Part shown: in pieces, positions 9,134 through 32,397 of the stretch
Layout of the letters: the number at the start of each line of letters is the position of its first letter
How positions within the stretch are numbered: position 1 is the first letter of the stretch
The notes under the pieces: generated by a model
What the model was told of the DNA's origin: nothing
Seen by the model: only the letters and a program-made list of their open reading frames with translations
Databases searched by the model: none
Source: an uncultured Methylococcaceae bacterium
GTDB lineage: Bacteria; Pseudomonadota; Gammaproteobacteria; Methylococcales; Methylomonadaceae
Length of the DNA: 34,672 nt
Assembly (NCBI GenBank): GCA_903839855.1
Contig: CAIMEB010000291.1
Coordinates: forward strand, 1 to 34,672
Direction of reading: 5' to 3'
Position numbers and translations under genes: made by a program

Positions 9134-10639
9134 ATGCAATTGCCAGTATTAAACAATACCCCAAGCCAAGCAGAGCATGGGGCAAAGGGTGGATGTTCAG
9201 CCAGTTCTTGTGGAACAACAGACAATCAGATGGATTCCTTACCCGATTCAATTCGGGAAAAAGTTCAAAACCATCCCTGTTATTCTGAAGATGCTCATCA
9301 TTACTTTGCGCGCATGCATGTGGCAGTGGCTCCAGCGTGTAATATTCAATGTCATTACTGTAACCGAAAATACGACTGCGCCAACGAATCTCGTCCTGGT
9401 GTCGTTTCTGAACTTTTAACCCCAGATCAAGCGGTTAAGAAAACTATGGCCGTCGCGGCTACCATTCCACAAATGACCGTACTGGGTATTGCAGGCCCGG
9501 GTGACCCATTAGCTAATCCAGAACGCACGTTTGAAACCTTCCGCCGATTAAGTCAAGAAGCCCCCGACATTAAGCTTTGTGTGTCGACTAATGGCCTTGC
9601 TTTACCTGATGCCGTTGAAGAACTTTCTAAACATAATATTGACCACGTTACCATTACCATTAATACCGTTGACCCTGAGATTGGTGCCAAGATCTATCCT
9701 TGGATATTCTGGAATAACAAACGTATCAAAGGTGTTAAGGGCGCGAAGATCCTGATTGAACAACAACAAAAAGGCTTGGAAATGCTCATAGCAAAAGGCA
9801 TTTTAGTTAAAGTCAATTCGGTGATGATTCCGGGTGTTAATGATCAGCACTTAGCCGAAGTCAGTAAGGTAGTTAAATCCAAAGGCGCTTTCTTGCACAA
9901 TGTGATGCCATTAATTGCTGAAGCCGAACACGGTACTTTCTATGGCGTCATGGGACAACGTGGCCCTACTCCAGAGGAATTACAAGATTTACAGGATAGC
10001 TGTTCTGGTGATATGAACATGATGCGTCATTGCCGTCAATGCCGCGCAGATGCAGTGGGCTTACTCGGTGAAGATCGCGGTGATGAGTTTACCTTGGACA
10101 AGATTGAAGAAATGGATATCGATTATCAGGCCGCCATGGAAAAACGTAAAGTCATCCATCAAGCCATTCAAGAAGAAATGGACAGTAAACGTCTCGAAAA
10201 AGCTGTCAAAGCACAGCAACATCAACAGGAACCTAAACTTACCACCCGTCCGGTATTAATGGCTGTGGCGACCAGTGGTCAAGGGGTTATCAACGTGCAT
10301 TTTGGTCATGCTAAAGAGTTCCTGATTTATGAAGCCTCACCTGAAGGCGTTCGCTTCATCAGTCATCGTAAAGCGGATCAATATTGTGGCGGAGATACCA
10401 GCTGTGGTGATGGTGAAAGTGTCTTACAACTAACAATCAGAGCGCTCGCAGGTTGTGAAGCGGTATTGTGTTCAAAAGTGGGTTATGAACCTTGGGAAAT
10501 GCTTGAAGCAGCGGGCATTGCACCAAATGGTGAACACGCTATGGAGCCGATTGAAGATGCTGTCTTGGCTGTATATAAAGAAATGGCTGCTGCCGGAAAA
10601 CTGGATGAAAAGAACGAAGCCGTCCGCGCAAACGCATAA
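9134..10639 (+). CDS. nifB: NifB, FeMo-cofactor biosynthesis radical SAM enzyme
   Basis: A 501-residue NifB of the usual two-domain type. The radical SAM domain carries the CxxxCxxC motif at C69, C73 and C76 (ACNIQCHYC), and then GIAGPGDPLANPE, a typical SAM-binding segment. From about residue 375 (RPVLMAVATSGQGVINVHFGHAKEF) a NifX/NafY-like cofactor-carrier domain follows. NifB fuses two [4Fe-4S] clusters with a SAM-derived carbide to make NifB-co, the precursor of all nitrogenase active-site cofactors. The ATG at 9134 has an AGAGG ribosome-binding site eight bases away. It is the first gene of the operon under the NifA/sigma-54 promoter. Confidence 0.97.
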   Translation: MQLPVLNNTPSQAEHGAKGGCSASSCGTTDNQMDSLPDSIREKVQNHPCYSEDAHHYFARMHVAVAPACNIQCHYCNRKYDCANESRPGVVSELLTPDQAVKKTMAVAATIPQMTVLGIAGPGDPLANPERTFETFRRLSQEAPDIKLCVSTNGLALPDAVEELSKHNIDHVTITINTVDPEIGAKIYPWIFWNNKRIKGVKGAKILIEQQQKGLEMLIAKGILVKVNSVMIPGVNDQHLAEVSKVVKSKGAFLHNVMPLIAEAEHGTFYGVMGQRGPTPEELQDLQDSCSGDMNMMRHCRQCRADAVGLLGEDRGDEFTLDKIEEMDIDYQAAMEKRKVIHQAIQEEMDSKRLEKAVKAQQHQQEPKLTTRPVLMAVATSGQGVINVHFGHAKEFLIYEASPEGVRFISHRKADQYCGGDTSCGDGESVLQLTIRALAGCEAVLCSKVGYEPWEMLEAAGIAPNGEHAMEPIEDAVLAVYKEMAAAGKLDEKNEAVRANA

Positions 10640-10677
10640 CTAAACCCGGGGATTGGGTTAGTACTTAGCTAACCCAA
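10640..10677 (+). promoter_or_regulatory. Alternative hairpins between nifB and the ferredoxin gene
   Basis: TTGGGTTAG (10653-10661) and CTAACCCAA (10669-10677) form a perfect 9-bp stem with a 7-nt loop. The first arm can instead pair with CTAAACCC at 10640-10647. No U-run follows, so it may be a processing or attenuation structure that lowers downstream expression relative to nifB. Confidence 0.4.
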
Positions 10678-10747
10678 GTCAAAACTAACAGTCTGGATTA
10701 TTAGGTAATGCTTATGCTAAACCAATCAACGATTATAGGAGTCCACT

Positions 10748-11026
10748 ATGGCAGTATCTATTATTGATTTATGCGTCAATTGTTTTGCCTGTGAACCGGT
10801 ATGTCCCAGCCATGCAATTTCTGAAGCAAAACCGCATTTCTTGGTTGACCCCAAAAAATGTACTGAATGTGAAGGTGATTTTCCAGTGTTTCAATGCGCT
10901 AGTATTTGCCCTATAGAAGGCGCAATTTTAGATTCTTTTGGTGTTGCTATTAATCCGCCAGGCTCTTTAACGGGCATTCCACCCGAAAAAATGGCTGAAG
11001 CGATGGCAGAATTACAATCCCACTAA
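10748..11026 (+). CDS. fdxN: [4Fe-4S] ferredoxin of the nif cluster (FdxN type)
   Basis: A 92-residue bacterial-type ferredoxin. The first cluster motif is C9-x2-C12-x2-C15-x3-C19-P. The second is C38-x2-C41-x8-C50-x3-C54-P, with the enlarged eight-residue spacing common in nif-linked ferredoxins. It probably delivers electrons to NifB or to nitrogenase assembly, as shown for FdxN of Azotobacter, where the gene also follows nifB. A strong AGGAG ribosome-binding site precedes the ATG. Confidence 0.92.
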   Translation: MAVSIIDLCVNCFACEPVCPSHAISEAKPHFLVDPKKCTECEGDFPVFQCASICPIEGAILDSFGVAINPPGSLTGIPPEKMAEAMAELQSH

Positions 11027-11041
11027 TTCAGGAGTTATCTA

Positions 11042-11464
11042 ATGGTCACTATCACATTCTATGAAAAGCCCGGTTGTGCTAACAATACTCGGCAAAAGAA
11101 ACTGTTGGTGGCCGCCGCTCATCAGGTTATTCCTAAAAACATCTTAACTGAAGAGTGGACTGAGCAACGCTTACGTCCTTTCTTTGGTGATTTACCGGTT
11201 AAAGACTGGTTTAACTACAGTGCGCCGGATATTAAATACGGTGAAATTGATCCTCATGAGCAGACCGAAGCTCAAGCACTTGCATTAATGCTACAAAATC
11301 CATTATTAATTCGTCGACCTTTAATGCAAATAGATGATGTCTTTATCGCTGGATTTGATCAGGAACTGATTGATAACCGGATCGGCTTACACGCTGTAGA
11401 TATTACTTCTGATTTAGAACGCTGCCCCAAAACACAGTCTCAATCAAGTTGCAGCCATGAGTAA
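11042..11464 (+). CDS. nifO: Nitrogenase-associated ArsC-like protein NifO
   Basis: A 140-residue protein of the ArsC/Spx thioredoxin-like fold. It has one N-terminal cysteine in KPGCANNTRQKKLL (C12, the arsenate-reductase position) and the helix-strand block NPLLIRRPLMQIDDVFIAGFD (about residues 87-107), the typical ArsC substrate-side segment. NifO follows nifB-fdxN in Azotobacter too and has been linked to molybdenum partitioning between nitrogenase and nitrate reductase. It has a GGAG ribosome-binding site 16 bp after the ferredoxin and overlaps the next gene by eight bases. Confidence 0.9.
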   Translation: MVTITFYEKPGCANNTRQKKLLVAAAHQVIPKNILTEEWTEQRLRPFFGDLPVKDWFNYSAPDIKYGEIDPHEQTEAQALALMLQNPLLIRRPLMQIDDVFIAGFDQELIDNRIGLHAVDITSDLERCPKTQSQSSCSHE

Positions 11465-12737
11465 AGTACCCGTATTAAGTATTGGTAATATACCCCAAGC
11501 CGTTGCTTTATCGGAGCGCGTCCATTGGGTGGGCGCTTTAGACCCTAACTTACGTAACTTTGACATCATTTTAAAAACAGCCAATGGGACTTCTTATAAT
11601 GCCTATATCGTAAGAGGCAGCGAAGGTGTTGCCATTATTGACACCGTTAAGGAGAACTTTGCCGATGATTTCTTTACTCGATTAGAGTCAGTGACTCGTT
11701 ATGATGAGATTAAAGTCATTGTCTTAAATCATTTAGAGCCTGACCATACAGGTGCTTTACCTGAACTCATGCGCCGCGCACCCCAAGCTCGGGTGTATAT
11801 TTCACAAAAAGCGCAGTCTATGCTTAAAGCGCTATTAAAGCAGGATGATTTTGAATTTACTCCGGTTATAACAGGTGACAGCGTATCCCTAGGTGATAGA
11901 ACCTTACAGTTCTTTCATACGCCCTATTTACATTGGCCAGACACTCAATGTACCTATCTACCGGAAGAAGCTATCTTGTTTTCTGGGGATGTGTTTGGCT
12001 GTCATTTCTGTGACTCGCGCTTATTTAACGATGTGGTTGGCGATTTTAGGTTTTCCTTTGAATACTACTACGCACACATCATGCGACCTTTTAAAGATTA
12101 TGTTAATCGGGCATTGACTCTATTAGAGCCGTTAATATTAACCACTATTTTACCCGCCCACGGCCCTTTATTGCGTGATCAACCGCAGCGCTATGTGCAA
12201 CGCTATAAAGAACTGTCTCACTCGGCCTTACAAAGTGAGATCAGTGTCGGTGAAAAGACCCTGTTAATCTTTTATATCAGCTCTTATGGCAATACGAGGC
12301 GTATGGCCGAAGCCATTTATGAGGGTGCTATGTCTGTTGAACATGTACGGGTTTCTTTATACGACCTAGAAGGCAGCGAGATCTCACCCTTTGTTGATTT
12401 AATCGAAGGAGCCGATGGCATTATTTTTGGAACGCCTACGATTAATGGTGACGCAGTAAAACCGGTATGGGACTTACTCTCCTCACTCACCGTCATTAAT
12501 CTTAAATCAAAGTTAGGCGGCGTCTTTGGCTCTTATGGGTGGACAGGTGAAGGTGTCAAAATGGTAGAAGACCGCTTACGTGGACTTAAGTTGCGTGTAC
12601 CTATTCCGGGTATCCGTATCAAGTTAATTCCGACAGAAGAAGAAACCCAACTCTGTCGTGAATTTGGGCATGAAATGGCCCTGGATCTAATGGGTTTAAG
12701 GCAAGCGAAAGTAATTGATATTGCTGATCTTGCTTAA
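11457..12737 (+). CDS. fprA: Flavodiiron protein (A-type flavoprotein, FprA-like)
   Basis: A 426-residue two-domain protein. The metallo-beta-lactamase-like half carries all the diiron ligands: H92-x-E94-x-D96-H97 (NHLEPDHTG), H159 (LHWPD), D178 (GDVFG) and H235 (LPAHGP). From about residue 252 comes a flavodoxin domain with the FMN phosphate loop ISSYGNTRRMAE and the GTPTINGD and GSYGWTGEG loops. There is no C-terminal rubredoxin, so a separate ferredoxin must donate electrons. The family reduces O2 to water and/or NO to N2O. Inside a nif operon it probably protects nitrogenase or its assembly from oxygen or NO. An FprA is also nif-linked in Rhodobacter capsulatus. Its start overlaps nifO. 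Confidence 0.93.
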   Translation: MSKVPVLSIGNIPQAVALSERVHWVGALDPNLRNFDIILKTANGTSYNAYIVRGSEGVAIIDTVKENFADDFFTRLESVTRYDEIKVIVLNHLEPDHTGALPELMRRAPQARVYISQKAQSMLKALLKQDDFEFTPVITGDSVSLGDRTLQFFHTPYLHWPDTQCTYLPEEAILFSGDVFGCHFCDSRLFNDVVGDFRFSFEYYYAHIMRPFKDYVNRALTLLEPLILTTILPAHGPLLRDQPQRYVQRYKELSHSALQSEISVGEKTLLIFYISSYGNTRRMAEAIYEGAMSVEHVRVSLYDLEGSEISPFVDLIEGADGIIFGTPTINGDAVKPVWDLLSSLTVINLKSKLGGVFGSYGWTGEGVKMVEDRLRGLKLRVPIPGIRIKLIPTEEETQLCREFGHEMALDLMGLRQAKVIDIADLA

Positions 12738-23182: not shown

Positions 23183-23199
23183 TTGGCATAATAATTGCT
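23183..23199 (+). promoter_or_regulatory. Candidate sigma-54 promoter of the SulP-hyf operon
   Basis: TTGGCATAATAATTGCT has GG (23185-23186) and GC (23197-23198) exactly ten bases apart and fits TTGGCA-N6-TTGC. It lies about 50 bp before the SulP start. No TGT-N10-ACA NifA site was found in the gene-free stretch 22910-23247, so another enhancer-binding protein would be needed. I saw nothing else in that stretch. Confidence 0.6.
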
Positions 23200-23247
23200 T
23201 TTTAAATATATTATTTATAAATACTACTGTCATAACCGAGGATTTTT

Positions 23248-24894
23248 ATGAGTACAGCTTCATTGTCTACGTTGCCAAAAACTGGCTTAGCAGGATTAAA
23301 AGAAAATTGGCAAAGTGACTTATTGTCAGGATTTTTAGTCTTTTTAATCGCTTTACCTCTATGTCTCGGCATATCAATGGCATCAGGTTTTCCGCCATCT
23401 GCAGGCATTATCACTGCCATTATTGGAGGCGTTTTAGTTTCTCGTCTTAACGGTTCATTTGTCACCATCAATGGCCCCGCAGCAGGTTTAATTGTAGTCG
23501 TCCTAGGCGCGGTTCAGGAGCTTGGAGAAGGTGATGCCATGGCGGGATACCGTTATGCCTTAGCTGCTATTGTCGTTGCGAGTGCGATACAAGTCTTGAT
23601 GGGTGTATTTAAAGCTGGTCGCTTGAGTTCTTATTTTCCTGCCTCTGTTGTCCATGGTATGTTAGCAGCCATTGGCATCATCATCATGGCCAAGCAAATT
23701 CATGTCATGCTAGGAACAATACCAGAAAAAGGTAGCAGTTTATTTTCCACAATCGCTCAGATTCCACACAGCTTACTAAACCCTAATTATGAAATTGCAA
23801 TTATTGGCTTCACTGGTCTGGCGATTTTAATTGTTTGGTCTTGCATAAAAAATCCACTATTGAAGATGATTCCAGCTCCATTAGTTGTAGTTTTAGTAGG
23901 TATAGGTCTCGCTAAATATTTCGACTTAGACCATGAACACATGTACTTATTTCTACCCGATGCTGCAATTCTGCCCCATCATGAACAAACAGTTGGTCCC
24001 AAGTTTTTAGTGGCTATTTCTGATAACTTTATGTCCAGCTTTTATTTTCCTGATTTTTCAAAACTGCCAACTATTGAATTCTGGGAAGCCGTCATCAGCA
24101 TCAGTCTTGTAGGTAGCTTAGAAAGCTTACTGAGTGCCATGGCTGTCGATAAACTGGATACTTACAAACGTCACTCCAATTTAGACCGTGATTTAACAGC
24201 TGTGGGTGTTGGTAACTTAGTATCTGGATTAATCGGTGGCTTACCTATGATCGCTGAAATTGTCCGTAGTTCAGCAAACGTCAATAACGGCGCAAAGACC
24301 CAATGGGCTAATTTCTTCCACGGTACTTTTTTGCTGTTGTTTGTTGTATTATTTCCTCGCCTTATCCACAGTATTCCTTTAGCTGCTCTTGCCGCTCTAT
24401 TAGTTTTTACTGGTTTTCGTTTAGCATCGCCCTCGTCATTTGCTCATGTGATGGGCATTGGTAAAGAACAATTATTTATGTTTATTCTAACCATTGTCGG
24501 GGTATTGGCAACAGATCTGTTAGTAGGTGTTGCTATTGGTATCATAGCCAAATTAATCATCCATATTATTCGTGGTGTTAAATTAAGCAATCTGTTTAAA
24601 ATTAGTTTTGTAATAGAAAATAAAGACCCAAATACTATTGTCGTCAGCATCGATGGTGCGGCTGTTTTTTCAAATTTTCTGGCGCTCAAAACTGGTTTAG
24701 CCGGTGTAGAACAAGGTAAGGCAATCATATTTCAAATGAATAATGCTTATCTGATTGATCACACTGTTATGGAGTATTTCCATGACTTTCAGCATAATTA
24801 TGAAGATAATGGTGGCTCAGTCACTTTTGTTGGATTAGATCAACTCGAAGCATTTTCAGAGCATCCTTTGGCTGTTCGTAGAATAAAAGCCTAA
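23248..24894 (+). CDS. SulP-family inorganic anion transporter
   Basis: A 548-residue SulP/SLC26 transporter. The membrane core has the family's opening FLVFLIALPLCLGISMASGFPPSAGI and the substrate-site blocks GSFVTINGPAAGL, SLVGSLESLLSAMAVDK and RDLTAVGVGNLVSGLIGGLP. A C-terminal STAS domain follows (about 445-548, NTIVVSIDGAAVFSNF to VTFVGLDQLEAF). Substrates of the family include bicarbonate, sulfate and other oxyanions, and sequence alone does not settle this one. It is preceded by a GAGGA ribosome-binding site and a candidate sigma-54 promoter. It lies 71 bp before hyfB on the same strand, which makes bicarbonate uptake coupled to the membrane complex an attractive inference. Confidence 0.9.
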   Translation: MSTASLSTLPKTGLAGLKENWQSDLLSGFLVFLIALPLCLGISMASGFPPSAGIITAIIGGVLVSRLNGSFVTINGPAAGLIVVVLGAVQELGEGDAMAGYRYALAAIVVASAIQVLMGVFKAGRLSSYFPASVVHGMLAAIGIIIMAKQIHVMLGTIPEKGSSLFSTIAQIPHSLLNPNYEIAIIGFTGLAILIVWSCIKNPLLKMIPAPLVVVLVGIGLAKYFDLDHEHMYLFLPDAAILPHHEQTVGPKFLVAISDNFMSSFYFPDFSKLPTIEFWEAVISISLVGSLESLLSAMAVDKLDTYKRHSNLDRDLTAVGVGNLVSGLIGGLPMIAEIVRSSANVNNGAKTQWANFFHGTFLLLFVVLFPRLIHSIPLAALAALLVFTGFRLASPSSFAHVMGIGKEQLFMFILTIVGVLATDLLVGVAIGIIAKLIIHIIRGVKLSNLFKISFVIENKDPNTIVVSIDGAAVFSNFLALKTGLAGVEQGKAIIFQMNNAYLIDHTVMEYFHDFQHNYEDNGGSVTFVGLDQLEAFSEHPLAVRRIKA

Positions 24895-24965
24895 CACGTA
24901 TTATTTATCCACCTAAACAGGTATGTCCTTAATTTTCTTAGATTTAATAACGTAATGAGGCAATC

Positions 24966-27092
24966 ATGATTTTATTTTCAGCTTATCTTGCAGTACTATT
25001 AAGCTTTGCCTCAGGTTTGTTAGCTCTAACAGTTAATCAAAGGCACCTGTTGCAGACCTTATGTAATTATAGCTTTAGCACATTATTTAAAAACCAGTCT
25101 CAACATAAAGCCTGGATTGATAAAAACCTTGAACTACAGCGTTTTCCTGCCTTTCTTAGACAAGGGGTCTTTATTCTGCTGGGCTTATCAGGGTTATTTG
25201 CCGTTATTGCAGGACTGACTGTCTTAATCAGTAAACAAGTAATTACGGATCAACTGCCCTTAGGTTTACCTTGGCTGCCCTGGCATATCCGTTTTGACTG
25301 TTTGTCTGGCTTCTTCTTTCTGATTATTGGCATTGGGGTTTTTGCAGTCAGTCTTTATGGTCCAGGTTATGTACGCACCTATAAAGAACACCAACATCCC
25401 TTTGCCAGTCTGGGCTTATTTACCGGTCTGTTTGTCGCTGGTATGTTATTAGTTCTGTTATCAGATGATGCTTTCATGTTCATGATTGCGTGGGAACTTA
25501 TGTCAGTAGCCAGTTATTTTCTGGTTGCTTTTCAACATGAGAACTCCGCTAATCGCCGCGCCGCCTTCCTGTATTTATTAATGGCTGAAGTTGGTGCCTT
25601 AGCGATTATTCTGGCTTTTGGCGTATTAGCCAGTTTTTCTGATGGCTTCACTTTTAATGCCTTACGAGAATCCAAGTTATCTGTAACCTGGTCTAGCATT
25701 GCGTTCGTACTTGCTCTTCTAGGATTTGGCATGAAGGCCGGTATAGCTCCTATTCATGTCTGGTTACCTGAAGCACATCCCGTCGCACCGTCTCATATTT
25801 CAGCGTTAATGAGCGGTGTTATGCTCAAAGTAGCTGTCTACGGTTTAATTCGTTTTTGCTTTGATTTACTCAGTGAAGTACAGTGGCAATGGGGGGTTGT
25901 GTTATTGATACTGGGCAGTCTCTCAGCACTGGCAGGTATTCTGTATGCCATGATGCAACCCAATCTTAAACGGCTATTAGCTTACAGTTCAGTAGAAAAT
26001 ATTGGCATTATTTTTATGGTACTAGGCTTAACCATGATTTTTATGGCAACCGGCCATCCTCAATTAGGAGTCTTAGGTTTACTGGCTGCTTTATTTCATG
26101 CGTTTAATCATGCTCTATTTAAGAACTTACTGTTTTTAGGCGCTGGCATTCTGCAACACCAAACCCATGAACTCAATATTGACATGATGGGTGGCTTAAT
26201 TAAAAAAATGCCACAAACCAGCCTATTGTTTTTAGTCGGCTGTATGAGTATTTCATCATTACCGCTATTTAACGGCTTTGTCTCCGAATGGTTAGCTTTT
26301 CAGACAGCGCTCCAGGTTGATGTCCTGGATAACGGGGTATTACGCAGTTTAATTCCAGTAGCTGCAGCTGCTTTGGCCTTAACAGCGGCCTTGGCTGCCG
26401 CCTGCTTTGTCAAAGTCTTTGGACTTATTTTTCTGGGTCAACCACGTTCTCACCATAGTGAAAAAGCCCATGAGGTGCAAAATAAATTCATGTTAGCAGG
26501 TCCTGCCTTACTCGCAGGCTTATGTTTCTTTATCGGCATATTTCCCAGTACCATCATTCATCTCATCAATAATACGTCGGAGCAATTACTTGGACAAACC
26601 TTACCGAATGTCAACGCACTCAGTTGGCTATGGCTTGCACCCGTTTCAGCTCAACAAGCCTCTTATTCCCCACCCTTAGTGCTTATCGCTGCACTTATCG
26701 CTGCGGGTATTTGCTATAGCTATTTCCGCCGCAACCCTTTAACGACTGTCCGTACAGCACCCACCTGGGACTGTGGCTTTGGCGGACTCACACCCCGTAT
26801 GCAATATACATCGAGTTCTTTTACGATGCCATTTCGTCGAATTTTCGCAAAGGTATGGATAGTTGACGAACAAATCAGCAAAGAAACAAAAGGCGCCATG
26901 AATCAGGAAGTAGCCTCCGTACATTATCAACTTCAGGTTCATGACCACAGTTGGCCGCACATATACACCCCCATTGCTCAGGGAGTCAATGATCTGGCAA
27001 GACAAGTAGGCAGAATTCAGACTGGGAATATCCGAACTTACCTGGGTTATTCATTTGTTACACTCATTCTTTTGTTATGGTTGATTAGCTGA
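24966..27092 (+). CDS. hyfB: Hydrogenase-4-like antiporter subunit HyfB
   Basis: A 708-residue Mrp/NuoL-type antiporter-like membrane subunit of the HyfB branch (E. coli HyfB 672). The proton-channel signatures are present: E177 in AWELMSVASYFLVAF, then KAGIAPIHVWLPEAHPVAPSHISALMSGVMLK (about 257-288), LLAYSSVENIGII and HAFNHALFKNLLFLGAG. It should translocate H+ or Na+ as part of a complex related to formate hydrogenlyase and complex I. The start ATG has a GAGGC ribosome-binding site, and its stop overlaps the ATG of a 36-codon ORF (TGATG). Confidence 0.94.
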   Translation: MILFSAYLAVLLSFASGLLALTVNQRHLLQTLCNYSFSTLFKNQSQHKAWIDKNLELQRFPAFLRQGVFILLGLSGLFAVIAGLTVLISKQVITDQLPLGLPWLPWHIRFDCLSGFFFLIIGIGVFAVSLYGPGYVRTYKEHQHPFASLGLFTGLFVAGMLLVLLSDDAFMFMIAWELMSVASYFLVAFQHENSANRRAAFLYLLMAEVGALAIILAFGVLASFSDGFTFNALRESKLSVTWSSIAFVLALLGFGMKAGIAPIHVWLPEAHPVAPSHISALMSGVMLKVAVYGLIRFCFDLLSEVQWQWGVVLLILGSLSALAGILYAMMQPNLKRLLAYSSVENIGIIFMVLGLTMIFMATGHPQLGVLGLLAALFHAFNHALFKNLLFLGAGILQHQTHELNIDMMGGLIKKMPQTSLLFLVGCMSISSLPLFNGFVSEWLAFQTALQVDVLDNGVLRSLIPVAAAALALTAALAAACFVKVFGLIFLGQPRSHHSEKAHEVQNKFMLAGPALLAGLCFFIGIFPSTIIHLINNTSEQLLGQTLPNVNALSWLWLAPVSAQQASYSPPLVLIAALIAAGICYSYFRRNPLTTVRTAPTWDCGFGGLTPRMQYTSSSFTMPFRRIFAKVWIVDEQISKETKGAMNQEVASVHYQLQVHDHSWPHIYTPIAQGVNDLARQVGRIQTGNIRTYLGYSFVTLILLLWLIS

Positions 27093-27202
27093 TGAATAAC
27101 AAAACACAAATAACCGTACCTGCTTCAAAAATATCGAGCCGTTATTATCTGGTTTACCCAAAGCTTATCAAAATCACCCTAACGGCGGAAGACACAGAAT
27201 GA
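27092..27202 (+). CDS. Small coupled ORF between hyfB and hyfC
   Basis: A 36-residue ORF that starts inside the hyfB stop (TGATG) and ends inside the hyfC start (ATGA), so it fills the gap exactly and would be translated by coupled ribosomes. The peptide is polar at both ends (MNNKTQITVPASK at the start, LTAEDTE at the end) with a basic-aromatic middle (SSRYYLVYPKLIK) and no membrane helix. I recognise no homologue. It could be a true small subunit, a coupling leader, or chance, and the double overlap favours a real gene. Confidence 0.5.
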   Translation: MNNKTQITVPASKISSRYYLVYPKLIKITLTAEDTE

Positions 27203-28143
27203 ACTGGTTAATAGCCATTTTACAAAGCGCATTATTTATTATCCTCGCGCCATTACTGGCAGGTTGGCTCAAATACTGTAAATGTCGTTTACAAAACCGT
27301 AAAGCACCCTCATTGCTGCAACCTTATCAAGATTTGCTTAAGTTATCAAACAAGCAACCTGTGGTTTCAGAACAGGCATCCTGGCTGTTTATAACAGCAC
27401 CTTATCTCATCTTCTCTGCCACCGCGTTGGCAGCCTCAGTTGTTCCGTTGATCGTTGTTGATCTACCCACCTCAGCCAGTGCGGATGTGATTGTGATGGT
27501 GGGTTTCTTTGCCTTCGCCCGTTTTTTTCTGACCTTAGCCGGATTAGATATCGGTACTGCATTTGGTGGTATGGGTTCTTCTAGAGAAATGACTATCTCT
27601 TCATTGGCAGAACCTGCTATGTTAATGGCTATTTTTACGCTGACCATGACTGCGTCTACCACTAATCTGTCGGGAGCTATTGCTCATGTACTAGATGAAG
27701 GCCTGGTGTTGCGACCCTCGTTCGTATTTGCTTTATTTGCTCTTGTCTTAGTCGCAATCGCTGAAACCGGACGTATTCCTGTCGATAATCCAACTACGCA
27801 TCTAGAATTAACCATGATCCATGAGGCGATGATTTTAGAGTACAGCGGTCGGTATTTAGCGCTTATTGAATGGGCAAGCCAACTAAAGCTCATGCTATAT
27901 GGTGTATTAATCGCTAATATCTTTTTTCCTTGGGGCATTGCAGAAACCTTTGCACTTAAAGATCTTGGCTATGGCTTACTCGCAATTTTAGGAAAACTGG
28001 CCTTACTCGCTATCTTTCTCGCTATTGCAGAAACCCTGGTTGCAAAAATGCGTTTATTTCGAGTACAGGAGTATCTAAGCTTTGCCTACTTATTAGGATT
28101 AATAGGTATGTTAAGTCACATCATTTTAGAGGCATCTCGTTAA
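27199..28143 (+). CDS. hyfC: Hydrogenase-4-like membrane subunit HyfC (NuoH-like)
   Basis: A 314-residue membrane protein matching HyfC/HycD (E. coli HyfC 315), homologous to complex I NuoH, which anchors the peripheral arm to the membrane. The conserved acidic-basic cytoplasmic loop is present: LQPYQDLLKLSNKQ (about 41-54) and ETGRIPVDNPTTHLELTMIHEAMILEYSG (about 189-217), the most diagnostic block of the family. GGMGSSREM also matches. A GGAAG ribosome-binding site lies inside the preceding small ORF. Its stop overlaps the hyfE start (TAATG). Confidence 0.95.
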   Translation: MNWLIAILQSALFIILAPLLAGWLKYCKCRLQNRKAPSLLQPYQDLLKLSNKQPVVSEQASWLFITAPYLIFSATALAASVVPLIVVDLPTSASADVIVMVGFFAFARFFLTLAGLDIGTAFGGMGSSREMTISSLAEPAMLMAIFTLTMTASTTNLSGAIAHVLDEGLVLRPSFVFALFALVLVAIAETGRIPVDNPTTHLELTMIHEAMILEYSGRYLALIEWASQLKLMLYGVLIANIFFPWGIAETFALKDLGYGLLAILGKLALLAIFLAIAETLVAKMRLFRVQEYLSFAYLLGLIGMLSHIILEASR

Positions 28144-28820
28144 TGAATATTGGACAAACCGACTTTTATACGCAAGCGATTTTATCTTTGGCTGCCTTAG
28201 TGGGACTGACATCATTTCTGATGCTAGGTCAAAGCAGGTTGTTACGATTAATCTTTGTGTTTGCTTTACAAGGTTTTTTATTAACCTTAACCACTTCATT
28301 AGCTGCTTATAGCTTGGGAAATCCTCATCTGTATATTTCAGCCGCACTCACTTTATTACTAAAAGTCATTTTTATACCGTGGATGTTAAGACGAGAAGTG
28401 TTACAGATGAACATACATCGAGATATTCAAACCTTAAAAAATAAAACCATGATAATGCTCGGTGGTGCCAGTTTGATGGTCTTTAGCTATTATGTATTAC
28501 ACCCGATAGTACAGAACACAGCGCCAGTCATGTTAAATGCATTGGCCGTTAGTCTATCCGTAGTCTTACTCGGTATGTTATTAATGATCTCACATCGGCA
28601 GGCAGTAGCCCATGTCGTTGGTTTTATGTCTATTGAGAATGGCTTATTTTTTGCGGCAATCGTTGCCACTAAAGGTATGCCAATGGTTGTTGAGTTAGGC
28701 ATTGCCTTTGATGTTTTAGTTGCCGCCGTACTGTTTGGTATCTTTTTCTTGCATATAAGAAGCAGCATCGACTCGTTAGATGTCGACTTACTAAACCGAT
28801 TAAACGAGATTGAAAAATGA
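28143..28820 (+). CDS. hyfE: Hydrogenase-4-like membrane subunit HyfE
   Basis: A 225-residue membrane protein similar to HyfE (E. coli 216), with a NuoK-like region in its second half: GFMSIENGLFFAAIVATKGMPMVVELGIAFDVLVAAVLFGIF (about 160-201; the buried E in SIENG and in VELG are the expected proton-path residues). It has about seven membrane helices. It overlaps hyfC upstream and hyfF downstream (ATGA), so stoichiometric co-translation is likely. Confidence 0.92.
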   Translation: MNIGQTDFYTQAILSLAALVGLTSFLMLGQSRLLRLIFVFALQGFLLTLTTSLAAYSLGNPHLYISAALTLLLKVIFIPWMLRREVLQMNIHRDIQTLKNKTMIMLGGASLMVFSYYVLHPIVQNTAPVMLNALAVSLSVVLLGMLLMISHRQAVAHVVGFMSIENGLFFAAIVATKGMPMVVELGIAFDVLVAAVLFGIFFLHIRSSIDSLDVDLLNRLNEIEK

Positions 28821-30280
28821 TTGCCGCCTATTTTGTGCTATTAATCCCCTTCGCTGGGATTATTTTTTTTGCTATAGCAGATTCCAGATCCGATATGGGC
28901 AGAATCAATGTCTATTTCAACGCTGTCTGTTTATTGGCAACACTGTGGCTAGCTGTTAATGTAGTTAATCACGGCACTATTTTATCGGCTAATAAAGCTT
29001 ATATAGTTGATCCTTTTAATGTCTACTTAATTGTACTTACCGCTTTTGTCGGACTCACCACCTCAATATTCTCTGCACCCTATATGGCGCATGAAAACGA
29101 AATCGGTAAGTTAACAGCAGGACGTTTAAAGCTTTATTACACCATGTATCAAGGCTTTATGTTAGCAATGTACCTCGTATTAACCACCAATAACCTAGGA
29201 ATCATGTGGGTTGCTATGGAAGGTGCGACCCTAGCGACTGTATTATTAGTCAGTTTATATCGCACCCCGGAATCGATTGAAGCCGCCTGGAAATATTTTA
29301 TTCTTTGTGGAGTCGGTATCGCACAAGCCTTGTTCGGTACTATCCTGCTATATTACGCAGCTATGCAAATCGGGGATGGTAGCAATGCTTTACTGTGGTC
29401 GGTTCTTTATGAAAACGCCACAAAATTAAACCCTGAAATACTTGAAATTGCGTTTGTGTTTATGCTGATTGGCTATGGCACAAAAATCGGTCTGGTGCCA
29501 CTACATAACTGGTTACCTGACGCCCATTCAGAAGGTCCAACACCCATGTCGGCTGTTCTCTCAGGTCTGTTATTAAATGACGCTTTATATGCAGTAGTAA
29601 GAAATAAAATGCTGGTTGATGGTACTACTCACAGCAACATTGCAGGCTATTTAATGATGGGCTTTGGCTTACTGTCATTTCTGGTCGGTGCTTTATTTCT
29701 ACATCGACAAAAGGATATTAAACGCCTATTCAGTTATTCTTCAATTGAACACATGGGTATGATGACATTTGCTTTTGGCATCGGTGGTTCGCTTGCAACC
29801 TACGCAGCATTACTGCACATGACAGTGCATTCTTTAACAAAATCGGCTATTTTTGTAACTGTTGGTCATGCGGCACAAATTGCAGGCACCCAACGGATTG
29901 AAAAAATCCGTGGACTTATAAGAACTCAACCCCAAGTTGGCTGGGGCTTATTAATAGGTACGCTTGCCATTGCAGGCTTCCCACCCTTTGGCGTATTTAC
30001 CAGTGAATTCCTGGTACTGCTTGCAACTATGCATAGTTATCCGTGGTTAGCACCTTTAGTACTATTAGGTATCGGTATTGCTTTCGCTGGACTCTTCAGA
30101 CATATACAACCCATTGTTTATGGAGAAAAGCCAGAAGGACAATTACCTGTTAAAGCCAACCTGTGGCCAGTCATCATTCATTTAGGTCTGGTATTATGGT
30201 TAGGTCTTTCAATACCTGGATTTCTAGCTCACTGGTTTTCTCAGGCGACCGTGTTAATTTCAGGGAGTACGCCTTTATGA
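28817..30280 (+). CDS. hyfF: Hydrogenase-4-like antiporter subunit HyfF
   Basis: A 487-residue second antiporter-like subunit (E. coli HyfF 526). The channel residues include E135 in MWVAMEGATLATVLLVSLY and the block GTKIGLVPLHNWLPDAHSEGPTPMSAVLSGLLLN (about 222-255), with K, H and D at the usual sites. DIKRLFSYSSIEHMGMM and HSLTKSAIFVTVGHAAQ follow. With HyfB it gives two ion channels. HyfD, the third antiporter-like subunit of E. coli Hyf, is absent. It overlaps hyfG by ATGA. Confidence 0.94.
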   Translation: MIAAYFVLLIPFAGIIFFAIADSRSDMGRINVYFNAVCLLATLWLAVNVVNHGTILSANKAYIVDPFNVYLIVLTAFVGLTTSIFSAPYMAHENEIGKLTAGRLKLYYTMYQGFMLAMYLVLTTNNLGIMWVAMEGATLATVLLVSLYRTPESIEAAWKYFILCGVGIAQALFGTILLYYAAMQIGDGSNALLWSVLYENATKLNPEILEIAFVFMLIGYGTKIGLVPLHNWLPDAHSEGPTPMSAVLSGLLLNDALYAVVRNKMLVDGTTHSNIAGYLMMGFGLLSFLVGALFLHRQKDIKRLFSYSSIEHMGMMTFAFGIGGSLATYAALLHMTVHSLTKSAIFVTVGHAAQIAGTQRIEKIRGLIRTQPQVGWGLLIGTLAIAGFPPFGVFTSEFLVLLATMHSYPWLAPLVLLGIGIAFAGLFRHIQPIVYGEKPEGQLPVKANLWPVIIHLGLVLWLGLSIPGFLAHWFSQATVLISGSTPL

Positions 30281-31863
30281 GTTCTTCAAATTGGACACTG
30301 GCCTTTTTAAGTCAGTTAAATAACACTAGTCTATCTATTGTTACCTCGCCTATAAATCAAAAAAGTAGCAGTGAAAAATGGCAAATCAACAGCTCACATT
30401 GGCACGAATTTAGTCGACTAGCTATCGAACAGCAGTTACGTTGGGTTTCTGGTTGGGCAGAACACAAAGATGCGCAGTTTATAGTAAATGCCTGTTTTGA
30501 AAAAGCCGGTATTTATATCCTCTTACGTACTCAAATTAGTGTTGATAACCCCGAATTACCTTCACAAGCCAGTGTCTATCCAGCCGCTAATCGTAGCGAA
30601 CGCCACACTCAAGACATGTTCGGCATTCGCTTTATTGGACACACTGATAACCGTCGCTGGACGCGACATCAGGCTTGGGACAAATACAGTTATCCTTTAC
30701 GTAAAGACTTTTCCGTAGACGGTGAGCCAGAAGCAATTACGCCAGCCGACAAAGACTACCCTTTCATTAAAGCTCAAGGAGCCGGTGTTTATGAAATTCC
30801 TGTCGGTCCCGTTCATGCGGGCATTATCGAGCCTGGACACTTTCGCTTTTTAGCCGTCGGCGAACTGATCTTAAATTTAGAAGAGCGGCTAGGCTATGTC
30901 CATAAAGGCATTGAAAAAATTGCTGAAGGTCGCTCACCTGAATCTTTAGCGCGTTTAGCAGGTCGAATTTCAGGTGATACAACCGTTGGACATACCTGGG
31001 CGGCCTGTATGGCAATGGAACAGGCCGCCACTATTGAAATCCCCCTACGTGCGGCATTAATCCGTGGCGTTTTAGCAGAACGTGAACGCATAGCCAATCA
31101 TTTAGGTGATATGGGCGCCATCTGTAATGACGTTGCCTTTGTATTTGCACAAATGCAATTTACCCGCTTACGTGAAGACTGGTTGCGCTCGAATGTGCTG
31201 GTCTTTGGTCATCGTCTATTAATGGACATTATTGTACCGGGCGGTGTCAAAATTGACCTGTCCGCAGATTCGGTCACGGTCATTAAAAAAGATATTACCC
31301 GATTGAAAAAAGAGCTTTCTGAAATTATGCCCATCATAGACCTTAACTCATCTCTTGAAGATCGACTGTATACGGCAGGTTATTTATCCCCTGAGATTGC
31401 CGCTGCTTTTGGCACCTTAGGCTATGTCGGCAGGGCTAGCGACCAGGATTATGATGTACGTCGTGATGCTGCTTATTTCCCTTATGACCAAGTAGAATTT
31501 AAAGTTGCCCTAGAAAATCAAGGTGATATTGCCTCACGCTTCTGGGTGCGTTATAAAGAAATCCAATCTTCTTTAAAGCTGATAGATCAATTTATAAATC
31601 AGCTAAGCGATGGCGATATCTTGACTGAATGGCAAGTGCCCCAACAGGATTCAGAAGGCTTGGGTATTGTTGAAGGCTGGCGGGGTGAAATTACCAGCTT
31701 TGTTCGATTTGACACTGATAATAAAATTGCCCGATTTTATCCAAGAGACCCCAGTATTATCAACTGGCCTGCTTTGGAAAAACTTACGCTTAATAATATT
31801 GTCCCAGATTTCCCTGTCTGTAATAAATCTGTAAATGGCTCTTACTCAGGCAACGATTTATAG
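30277..31863 (+). CDS. hyfG: Hydrogenase-4-like large subunit HyfG lacking NiFe ligands
   Basis: A 528-residue NuoC-NuoD-like fusion (E. coli HyfG 555). The N-terminal about 150 residues are the NuoC-like part (SERHTQDMFGIRF, YSYPLRKDF). From about 176 the large-subunit fold follows, with GPVHAGIIEPGHFRF, YVHKGIEK and LGDMGAICNDVAF. Where [NiFe] hydrogenases have RxCGxCxxxH this protein has R230-ISGDTTVG-H239, with no cysteine. The C-terminal DPCxxC is replaced by PDFPVCNKS with a single Cys (C515). It therefore cannot bind a normal NiFe centre and resembles NuoD or Ehr-type subunits. The frame is open further upstream, but the ATG at 30277 overlaps the hyfF stop and starts the conserved protein. 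Confidence 0.93.
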   Translation: MSSSNWTLAFLSQLNNTSLSIVTSPINQKSSSEKWQINSSHWHEFSRLAIEQQLRWVSGWAEHKDAQFIVNACFEKAGIYILLRTQISVDNPELPSQASVYPAANRSERHTQDMFGIRFIGHTDNRRWTRHQAWDKYSYPLRKDFSVDGEPEAITPADKDYPFIKAQGAGVYEIPVGPVHAGIIEPGHFRFLAVGELILNLEERLGYVHKGIEKIAEGRSPESLARLAGRISGDTTVGHTWAACMAMEQAATIEIPLRAALIRGVLAERERIANHLGDMGAICNDVAFVFAQMQFTRLREDWLRSNVLVFGHRLLMDIIVPGGVKIDLSADSVTVIKKDITRLKKELSEIMPIIDLNSSLEDRLYTAGYLSPEIAAAFGTLGYVGRASDQDYDVRRDAAYFPYDQVEFKVALENQGDIASRFWVRYKEIQSSLKLIDQFINQLSDGDILTEWQVPQQDSEGLGIVEGWRGEITSFVRFDTDNKIARFYPRDPSIINWPALEKLTLNNIVPDFPVCNKSVNGSYSGNDL

Positions 31864-31872
31864 GATTCTGAC

Positions 31873-32397
31873 ATGCTAAAACTTTTACTTAAAACCCTAA
31901 AAACAGGCATTGCTACAGAACGTTGTAAAACACCTAAAGATAATGAACTGGAAACATTGGGCATAGAAATTAAACGCTATATCGATAAAAAGTTTTCTGG
32001 CAGCATTGCTATCAGACAAGTTGATGCGGGGTCATGCAATGGCTGTGAACTTGAAATACATGCTCTCAATAACCCTTATTATGATATTGAGCGCTTTGGT
32101 ATTCATTTTGTAGCCTCACCTCGGCATGCTGATGTTTTATTGGTCACTGGCCCCGTGTCTCGGCACATGCAAACGGCTCTATTACGTACTTATGAATCAA
32201 CACCTGATCCTAAATGGGTTATTGCTGTGGGTGATTGTGCGACCTGCGGTGGAGAATTTGGTGTTTCTTACGCTAGTTGCGGTGCTGTTTCCAATGTCAT
32301 TCCGGTTGATATGACCATTGCCGGTTGTCCGCCAACTCCAATAGCATTAATGAAAGGATTACTTGGATTGATTAACTTGCCAAAAGGAAACGTTTAA
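31873..32397 (+). CDS. hyfI: Hydrogenase-4-like small subunit HyfI (NuoB-like)
   Basis: A 174-residue NuoB-like subunit, shorter than E. coli HyfI (about 250). It keeps the four ligands of the proximal [4Fe-4S] cluster: C55-x2-C58 (GSCNGCELE), C122 (GDCATCGG) and C152 (AGCPPTP). So the last cluster facing the former active site is intact although the large subunit has lost its metal ligands. It follows hyfG by nine bases. No ferredoxin-like HyfA or HyfH gene accompanies it, so the electron entry route, if any, must come from elsewhere. It is the last gene of the operon. Confidence 0.93.
   Translation: MLKLLLKTLKTGIATERCKTPKDNELETLGIEIKRYIDKKFSGSIAIRQVDAGSCNGCELEIHALNNPYYDIERFGIHFVASPRHADVLLVTGPVSRHMQTALLRTYESTPDPKWVIAVGDCATCGGEFGVSYASCGAVSNVIPVDMTIAGCPPTPIALMKGLLGLINLPKGNV

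Follow-up and report, generated by a model that had tools for sequence, protein, structure and literature searches.

A SulP transporter gene joined to an Ehr-type, hydrogenase-like gene set behind a sigma-54-type promoter site in Methylococcales, with a candidate role in bicarbonate supply

INTRODUCTION

The closest described relatives of the gene set studied here come from Nitrospira, for which the available excerpts of published reports call a hyfBCEFGI operon hyf-like with an unclear role (PMC5596200), describe a large subunit without the CxxCH motif (PMC12542776), label the complex Ehr (energy-converting-hydrogenase-related; PMC10284858) and, in a gene table, list the set as formate hydrogenase (PMC6131200). 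Our study concerns a 34,672-base stretch of DNA (hereafter the window; contig CAIMEB010000291.1, C291 in our numbering) from the 3.4-Mb, 99.98% complete genome of an uncultured Methylococcaceae bacterium (GCA_903839855.1), in which a gene for a SulP family anion transporter is followed by hyfB, hyfC, hyfE, hyfF, hyfG, and hyfI. Going by these excerpts, the complex itself is already of a known kind (Ehr or hyf-like, with the six-gene set published for Nitrospira); our literature search returned no description of a SulP-hyf operon, and this operon behind a sigma-54-type promoter is a setting not found described in the literature searched.

Like the Nitrospira complexes, that of the window combines a CxxC-less, group-4-related large subunit with antiporter-like subunits in a hyfBCEFGI set, whereas its tie to SulP and a sigma-54-type promoter sets it apart; it also lacks the formate dehydrogenase or CO dehydrogenase neighbour proposed, in the excerpts available, for some other Ehr complexes. 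The Hyc and Hyf complexes of E. coli give the best sequence matches among solved structures for HyfG, HyfI, HyfB, and HyfC, but the operon here lacks HyfA, HyfD, and HyfH, and its HyfG has neither nickel-iron (NiFe) ligands nor a cleavable C-terminus. Subunits of the NuoCD, B, H, and L/M/N types are shared with complex I, but NuoE, F, G, and I are not among the operon’s open reading frames (ORFs), and I184 and G233 stand at the quinone-ligand columns. The DAB/DAC systems (DabA with the NuoL-like DabB) likewise have antiporter-like subunits, and in relatives DabA is adjoined by the SulP clade of the window and by the same histidine kinase that is found near hyf, but no DabA (PF10070) occurs among the operon proteins.

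Complexes of this type are widespread, and according to the literature excerpts their role in Nitrospira is not known. SulP, as a probable bicarbonate transporter, offers a concrete partner. The operon behind a sigma-54-type promoter also suggests a testable condition, low CO2, in methanotrophs, organisms that matter for methane release.

RESULTS AND DISCUSSION

SulP and hyf are linked in Methylococcales behind a common promoter-like site

The Methylococcales set comprised 29 loci with at least 2 kb of DNA upstream of hyfB; owing to kinship among the genomes, and to some numbered genomes that named contigs probably duplicate, counts here and below are not independent. SulP is the next same-strand gene upstream of hyfB in 23 of the 29, as a tandem pair in seven, and in the SulP tree the window SulP clusters with the outer member of such pairs. 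A 4-nt overlap joins SulP to hyfB in L042, L043, and L060. The six remaining loci include one with a SulP (63% identity) somewhat farther away (L037), one with SulP fragments (L040), a Methylocaldum locus in which SulP is placed between hyfF and hyfG (L081), and three with no SulP upstream of hyfB (L044, L049, and L050); SulP fragments lie 5' of hyfB in genome G035.

The preliminary description of this DNA had staked its proposal on a conserved SulP linkage, which holds across most Methylococcales loci but not elsewhere. Outside the order, where genes were called by a codon-based method and the window protein served as query for SulP (distant SulPs may escape such a search), only 4 of 65 loci had SulP in the fetched DNA (L063, L064, L073, and L091), and only 1 of 19 further gammaproteobacterial regions had one adjoining hyfI (L220). 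In L091, a Geobacteraceae metagenome-assembled genome, SulP lies between hyfG and hyfI. Four SulPs near hyf in 50 loci compare with 0.25 expected (three in 49 without L063), for a set that we picked from the 65 with L063 knowingly included, with SulP counts per genome merged by hand; this estimate and that for the kinase below are rough Poisson calculations made after the pattern had been seen. SulP recurs near hyf above chance, through SulP types of other lineages, and is not a general partner.

The start codon of SulP is preceded, at a distance of 64 nt, by an exact match to the -24/-12 sequence that we take as the sigma-54 consensus. If one mismatch is allowed, there are six matches in the window, no more than chance, and a site of this quality precedes the operon’s first gene in 21 of the 29 Methylococcales loci vs 11 of 946 other genes in the fetched loci. 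The distance from site to start is 47-82 nt in 19 of the 21, 226 nt in L050, and 241 nt in L081; as the control range was 20-230 nt, L081 falls outside it and the comparable figure is 20 of 29. In L049, an exact site stands before hyfB itself, with SulP not upstream. A site was also found before DabA in 6 of 22 loci tested, these being of our choosing.

A histidine kinase and an NtrC-type regulator with a sigma-54 interaction domain, one or both, accompany 13 of 34 Methylococcales hyf loci; in L042 and L046 a one-strand run comprises SulP, hyfBCEFGI, a DUF2490 gene, a PhnA-type zinc ribbon gene, kinase, and regulator. Across 61 relatives examined, the kinase lies at most 10 kb from HyfG in seven genomes, from SulP in seven (in G046 also from DabA), and from DabA in six, that is, near one of these genes in 20 of 42 kinase-bearing genomes vs about one expected, an estimate that assumes roughly four modules per 3.3-Mb genome and uses coordinates picked by eye.

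A tentative role in bicarbonate supply

That the complex and SulP form one regulated unit is, in our judgement, very probable. The functional reading we favour falls a little short of being probable: SulP and an Ehr-type complex under a sigma-54-type promoter would together serve bicarbonate supply, the complex contributing ion pumping. Its central step, that the complex energises or balances bicarbonate transport, is more tentative still; the preliminary description had already proposed that the complex may energise uptake of bicarbonate or another anion. Under this reading, the promoter would drive joint expression of SulP and HyfBCEFGI in the methanotroph, and SulP would import bicarbonate for anaplerotic carboxylation or, in some relatives, for carboxylation by RuBisCO. 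A reaction at the remodelled HyfG pocket, with electrons entering or leaving via the HyfI cluster, would be coupled to H+ or Na+ movement, and this movement would support bicarbonate uptake, cytoplasmic pH, and charge balance. The NtrC-type two-component system would turn the set on along with further genes for inorganic carbon, namely DabAB and additional SulPs.

Several observations weigh against this reading. Among 370 Gammaproteobacteria, HyfG is associated neither with RuBisCO (29/52 vs 168/318, P = 0.77) nor with DabA (16/52 vs 80/318, P = 0.40), and with no association at the genome level, co-occurrence with these genes does not prove a role in inorganic-carbon supply. The window’s own genome has no RuBisCO match and already possesses DabA (contig C145), and outside Methylococcales DabA (L110) and RuBisCO (L103) were each found near hyf in 1 of 65 loci. 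No gene for an electron donor or input subunit is present among the operon ORFs. The kinase is near none of HyfG, SulP, and DabA in 22 of the 42 genomes; in that of the window, one of the 22, it lies on a different contig from the operon. As for the promoter-like site, it also precedes 13 of 24 SulPs not followed by hyfB and 10 of 11 that have another SulP behind them, while hyfB as first gene carries it in only 3 of 75 cases (L041, L049, and L050), none of them outside Methylococcales. Since SulPs without hyf behind them carry the site too, it belongs to SulP first, and we read it as a predicted SulP promoter that is common to hyf. Mutually exclusive use of DabA or hyf was also considered, and such a pattern was not seen among the genomes examined.

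Also on this side of the balance, 13 hyf-less relatives examined retain a SulP of the window type, which adjoins lptF in nine and has a cation-efflux (CDF) gene next in eight. As these relatives keep SulP in like surroundings, hyf has been lost from or gained at the SulP site while SulP itself was retained, and SulP does not need the complex. Such persistence, together with the 61 of 65 clusters elsewhere that have no SulP nearby (by similarity to the window protein) and the missing RuBisCO and DabA associations, favours a reading that we consider a serious possibility without calling it probable, namely that the Ehr complex serves on its own as a respiratory coupling site and that SulP is a chromosomal neighbour of long standing, sharing a promoter with it in Methylococcales but functionally uncoupled. 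Against mere neighbourhood stand the SulP-hyfB order itself, which spans several families and includes the 4-nt overlaps, the SulP genes placed within the operon in L081 and L091, and the other SulP types close to hyf in the four loci outside the order.

SulP belongs to a clade sister to carbonic anhydrase fusions

The best PDB match of the window SulP is 6ki1 (E 6e-23), which we take to be BicA; the protein scores 124 bits against the BicA equivalog, for which the cut-off is 880, and its best NCBIfam score is DauA-like at 193 bits (cut-off 614). In a tree of 66 tips, in which one G046 gene appears twice and five distant Methylococcales SulPs were chosen by us, the window SulP falls in a clade of 56 tips (including the doubled gene; support 0.993) with members that adjoin hyf, the kinase, or a DabA cluster (the last in the hyf-less G017) and one, in G046, at about 3 kb from rbcL. 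The sister clade has five tips (support 0.984), of which three are fusions to a Pro_CA (carbonic anhydrase) domain (L262, L264, and L265); sister-clade SulPs lie close to DabA in L264, L265, and L270. The window protein thus shares its family with the SulP bicarbonate transporters (BicA and the carbonic anhydrase fusions) and has the fusions in its sister clade, but it scores far under the BicA cut-off and has no fused enzyme. In Methylococcus capsulatus, an operon of SulP and a beta-carbonic anhydrase has been proposed to have a bicarbonate role, according to the part of that report available (PMC11423575). The position of the clade beside the fusions and the gene neighbours make bicarbonate the likeliest substrate, and we regard it as the predicted one with modest confidence.

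A different cargo is unlikely. SulP might carry formate, sulfate, or a C4-dicarboxylate, with the complex using formate-derived electrons, and the DauA-like score, though far below its cut-off, would suit such a role, as would the formate channel gene focB that comes after the E. coli hyf operon; formate is, moreover, a normal intermediate in methane oxidation. However, no formate dehydrogenase is found among the operon ORFs, and the relationship to the carbonic anhydrase fusions, with clade members lying close to rbcL or to a DabA cluster, points away from these anions.

As a separate observation, Methylococcales clusters of the DabA-long/NuoL-like kind (L270 1764-9895, L264, and L265) have SulP as neighbour or first gene.

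HyfG is a large subunit without NiFe ligands

The best match of HyfG among solved structures is HycE of formate hydrogenlyase (FHL; 226 bits), and its AlphaFold model (mean pLDDT 84) has the same protein as best PDB fold match (TM 0.89), the model being uncertain at residues 166-197 and the C-terminus, that is, around the former active site. An alignment with HycE puts S232, T235, S522, and G525 where the four NiFe ligands would be: where HycE and HyfG of E. coli have RVCGIC...H and DPCYSC, the window protein has RISGDT...H and NGSYSG, and it stops at a conserved ...SYSGNDL with no cleavable C-terminal extension. The motif table held 127 rows (121 family, three E. coli, and three NuoD-like), two family rows stopping short of the C-terminal motif, so that 119 were scored there. 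A cysteine at any ligand position occurs in 1 of 121 family rows (L232), at one position, whereas D234 is conserved in 121 of 121, G233 in 120 of 121, and G525 in 119 of 119. The preliminary description had rightly noted RISGDTTVGH in place of a CxxC, but had assigned C515 to the C-terminal motif; this residue is not at a ligand position but seven residues ahead of the first one in the C-terminal motif. C515 was also rejected as a key residue, since of the 119 rows 94 have C in its column, 22 have I, and 3 have N.

Phylogeny places the window protein within a clade of 121 family tips (support 0.97) that is sister to E. coli HycE/HyfG and separate from NuoD, with six references in all (two hydrogenase and four complex I). 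Nitrospirae loci share this clade, and for that reason the window HyfG likely falls inside the published Ehr tree as well. With a group-4-related large subunit, no NiFe cysteines, and antiporter subunits bearing pump-type residues, the operon shows the features by which Ehr complexes are recognised, and from these sequence features the complex is almost certainly Ehr-type, not a NiFe hydrogenase, as had been suggested at the outset. A NiFe hydrogenase reading was rejected on the four altered ligand positions and the loss of both CxxC motifs. A complex-I-like quinone reductase is not favoured either, since the His and Tyr columns that we presume to be the quinone ligands of complex I hold I184 and G233. 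A general substitute for a missing complex I was likewise rejected, as several hyf-bearing relatives carry NuoD-like matches; in the window’s own genome no second Complex1_49kDa match was found.

The pocket keeps invariant residues (H180, E185, H188, D234, N516, K517, and Y523), and a bolder view, which we consider improbable, would make the operon a third complex-I-derived inorganic-carbon machine beside DAC and the cyanobacterial NDH-1MS, with the emptied HyfG pocket catalytic. The pocket might then hydrate CO2, for example, or carry out some other reaction that releases protons; turnover or redox state of this site would drive ion movement and, with SulP, bicarbonate loading, and SulP-less clusters would pair the site with different partners. 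That the complex is a working group 4 NiFe hydrogenase (hydrogenase-4/FHL) with unusual ligands is scarcely credible in spite of the nearness of FHL HycE and the presence of the maturation gene hypD, because the four cysteine positions are changed throughout the family but for the one in L232, and because HyfG ends at its C-terminal motif and leaves a maturation protease nothing to cut off. HypD is encoded elsewhere in the window’s own genome (G000), on contig C134, so its absence, considered as proof against a hydrogenase, failed; maturation genes are missing from the window, as first described, but with HypD elsewhere in the genome this says little.

The iron-sulfur subunit and the membrane arm are preserved

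As the preliminary description had held, HyfI keeps its four cluster cysteines: C55, C58, C122, and C152 align with those of NuoB, HyfI, and HycG, and among 103 members each is kept by 90% or more. The same level of conservation (at least 90% for each residue) was found for E177, K257, K335, K386, and K483 of HyfB (96 members), E135, K223, K302, and K342 of HyfF (111 members), and E138, D196, E203, E209, and E214 of HyfC (100 members). Conserved Glu, Lys, and His residues of these subunits occupy columns common to NuoL/M/N and NuoH, which we take to line the proton path, in line with the ion-pump-type arm first predicted. Because the HyfI cysteines and these charged residues are kept, the cluster and the predicted pump parts appear to be maintained around a catalytic site that is not hydrogenase-type. 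A pseudo-complex undergoing decay is hardly tenable, for although the NiFe site is gone, SulP is fragmented in G035, and G055 lacks HyfG and has an integrase-type ORF fused to a hyfI piece, the window ORFs are intact, motif residues are retained across very divergent members, and a Bathymodiolus methanotrophic endosymbiont (L057) has kept the operon.

Distribution of the complex and variation among clusters

The HyfG type was found in 52 of 370 sampled Gammaproteobacteria (E 1e-60 or better). Among the best 80 of 582 relatives in the genome scan, hosts include Nitrospirae, Zetaproteobacteria, and Delta-, Alpha-, and Betaproteobacteria, and the named records with a HyfG at least 57% identical are Methylobacter and other Methylococcales, which makes a methanotroph of the Methylobacter type the most likely host of the window. 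Gene order hyfBCEFGI is mostly retained where the fetched DNA spans the genes; the exceptions are L081 and L091, with SulP inside, and L084, with no hyfB or hyfC match.

Outside Methylococcales, the only partner gene to recur is a small helix-turn-helix (HTH) regulator of about 80-94 aa directly 5' of hyfB in 12 loci (for example, L082 4421-4690 and L220 12805-13050; HTH_3 match in two of the 12), other neighbours having been judged solely on their initial residues. L078 (1-3926) and L091 (15101-21378) each have, next to the first hyf cluster, another that is more distantly related and whose large subunit likewise lacks the first CxxC, with an AGDT motif; this subunit ends in SYCGFDL in L078 and is truncated before its end in L091. 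Single cases among the 65 loci are an Accumulibacter hyf cluster followed by a DabA-long cluster (L110 13496-21491) and a Thiomonas hyf cluster followed by rbcL, CbbQ, a VWA protein, and a LysR regulator (L103 6407-11851).

The endosymbiont locus L057, from Bathymodiolus puteoserpentis, retains the SulP-hyf-kinase-regulator set. Genome G055 gave no match to HyfG and has, beside the kinase and a broken regulator, an ORF (L181 9691-11652) in which integrase core domains are combined with a hyfI piece and with DUF2490; this ORF is probably the scar of a hyf operon lost via a mobile element.

Gene layout and neighbouring genes

Coordinates are given in Table 1, with family assignments from Pfam and NCBIfam profile searches and with Ehr subunit letters (EhrA, B, C, D, L, and S) added to the Hyf names. 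The ORF list bears out the single strand and the gene order first described; the tight overlaps hold for the downstream genes, which overlap or almost touch, but not for SulP-hyfB (71-nt gap) or hyfB-hyfC (106-nt gap). A 36-aa ORF in the latter gap, at first taken as part of the operon, is unconserved in sequence among eight relatives and is treated as spacer for that reason. The true hyfG start is most likely the ATG at 30277, which gives a 4-base overlap with hyfF, and not the GTG at 30163 where the mechanical ORF began. HyfA, HyfD, and HyfH are absent, as initially reported: the operon ORF list has no hyfA, hyfD, or hyfH, nor any HyfH/HycF-like ferredoxin ORF of at least 70 aa. A Pfam scan of HyfE gave no match.

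Table 1. Positions of the promoter-like site and the operon genes in the window
Feature	Position	Strand	Evidence
Sigma-54-type -24/-12 promoter-like site, TGGCAT-N5-TTGCT	23184..23199	+	Only exact match in window
SulP family anion transporter, 548 aa	23248..24894	+	PF00916, E 1e-62
HyfB (EhrA-like), NuoL/M-type antiporter-like, 708 aa	24966..27092	+	PRK06521, 828 bits (cut-off 667)
HyfC (EhrB-like), NuoH-type, 314 aa	27199..28143	+	PF00146; FHL subunit 4 (HycD), 147 bits
HyfE (EhrC-like), membrane subunit, 225 aa	28143..28820	+	PRK11492, E 5e-22, under cut-off
HyfF (EhrD-like), NuoN/M-type antiporter-like, 487 aa	28817..30280	+	PRK06458.1-5, 769 bits (cut-off 543)
HyfG (EhrL-like), NuoCD/HycE-type, no NiFe ligands, 528 aa	30277..31863	+	HycE, 226 bits
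HyfI (EhrS-like), NuoB-type predicted [4Fe-4S] subunit, 174 aa	31873..32397	+	FHL subunit 7 (HycG), 131 bits

Downstream of the operon, the ORF list and Pfam give a CDF gene and a MASE1 gene. Upstream of SulP are two ORFs on the opposite strand that we presume to be lptF and lptG. Farther away, at 9134-12737 of the window, a NifB-like radical SAM protein that carries a FeMo-cofactor-type domain is followed by a flavodoxin/ODP beta-lactamase-fold protein.

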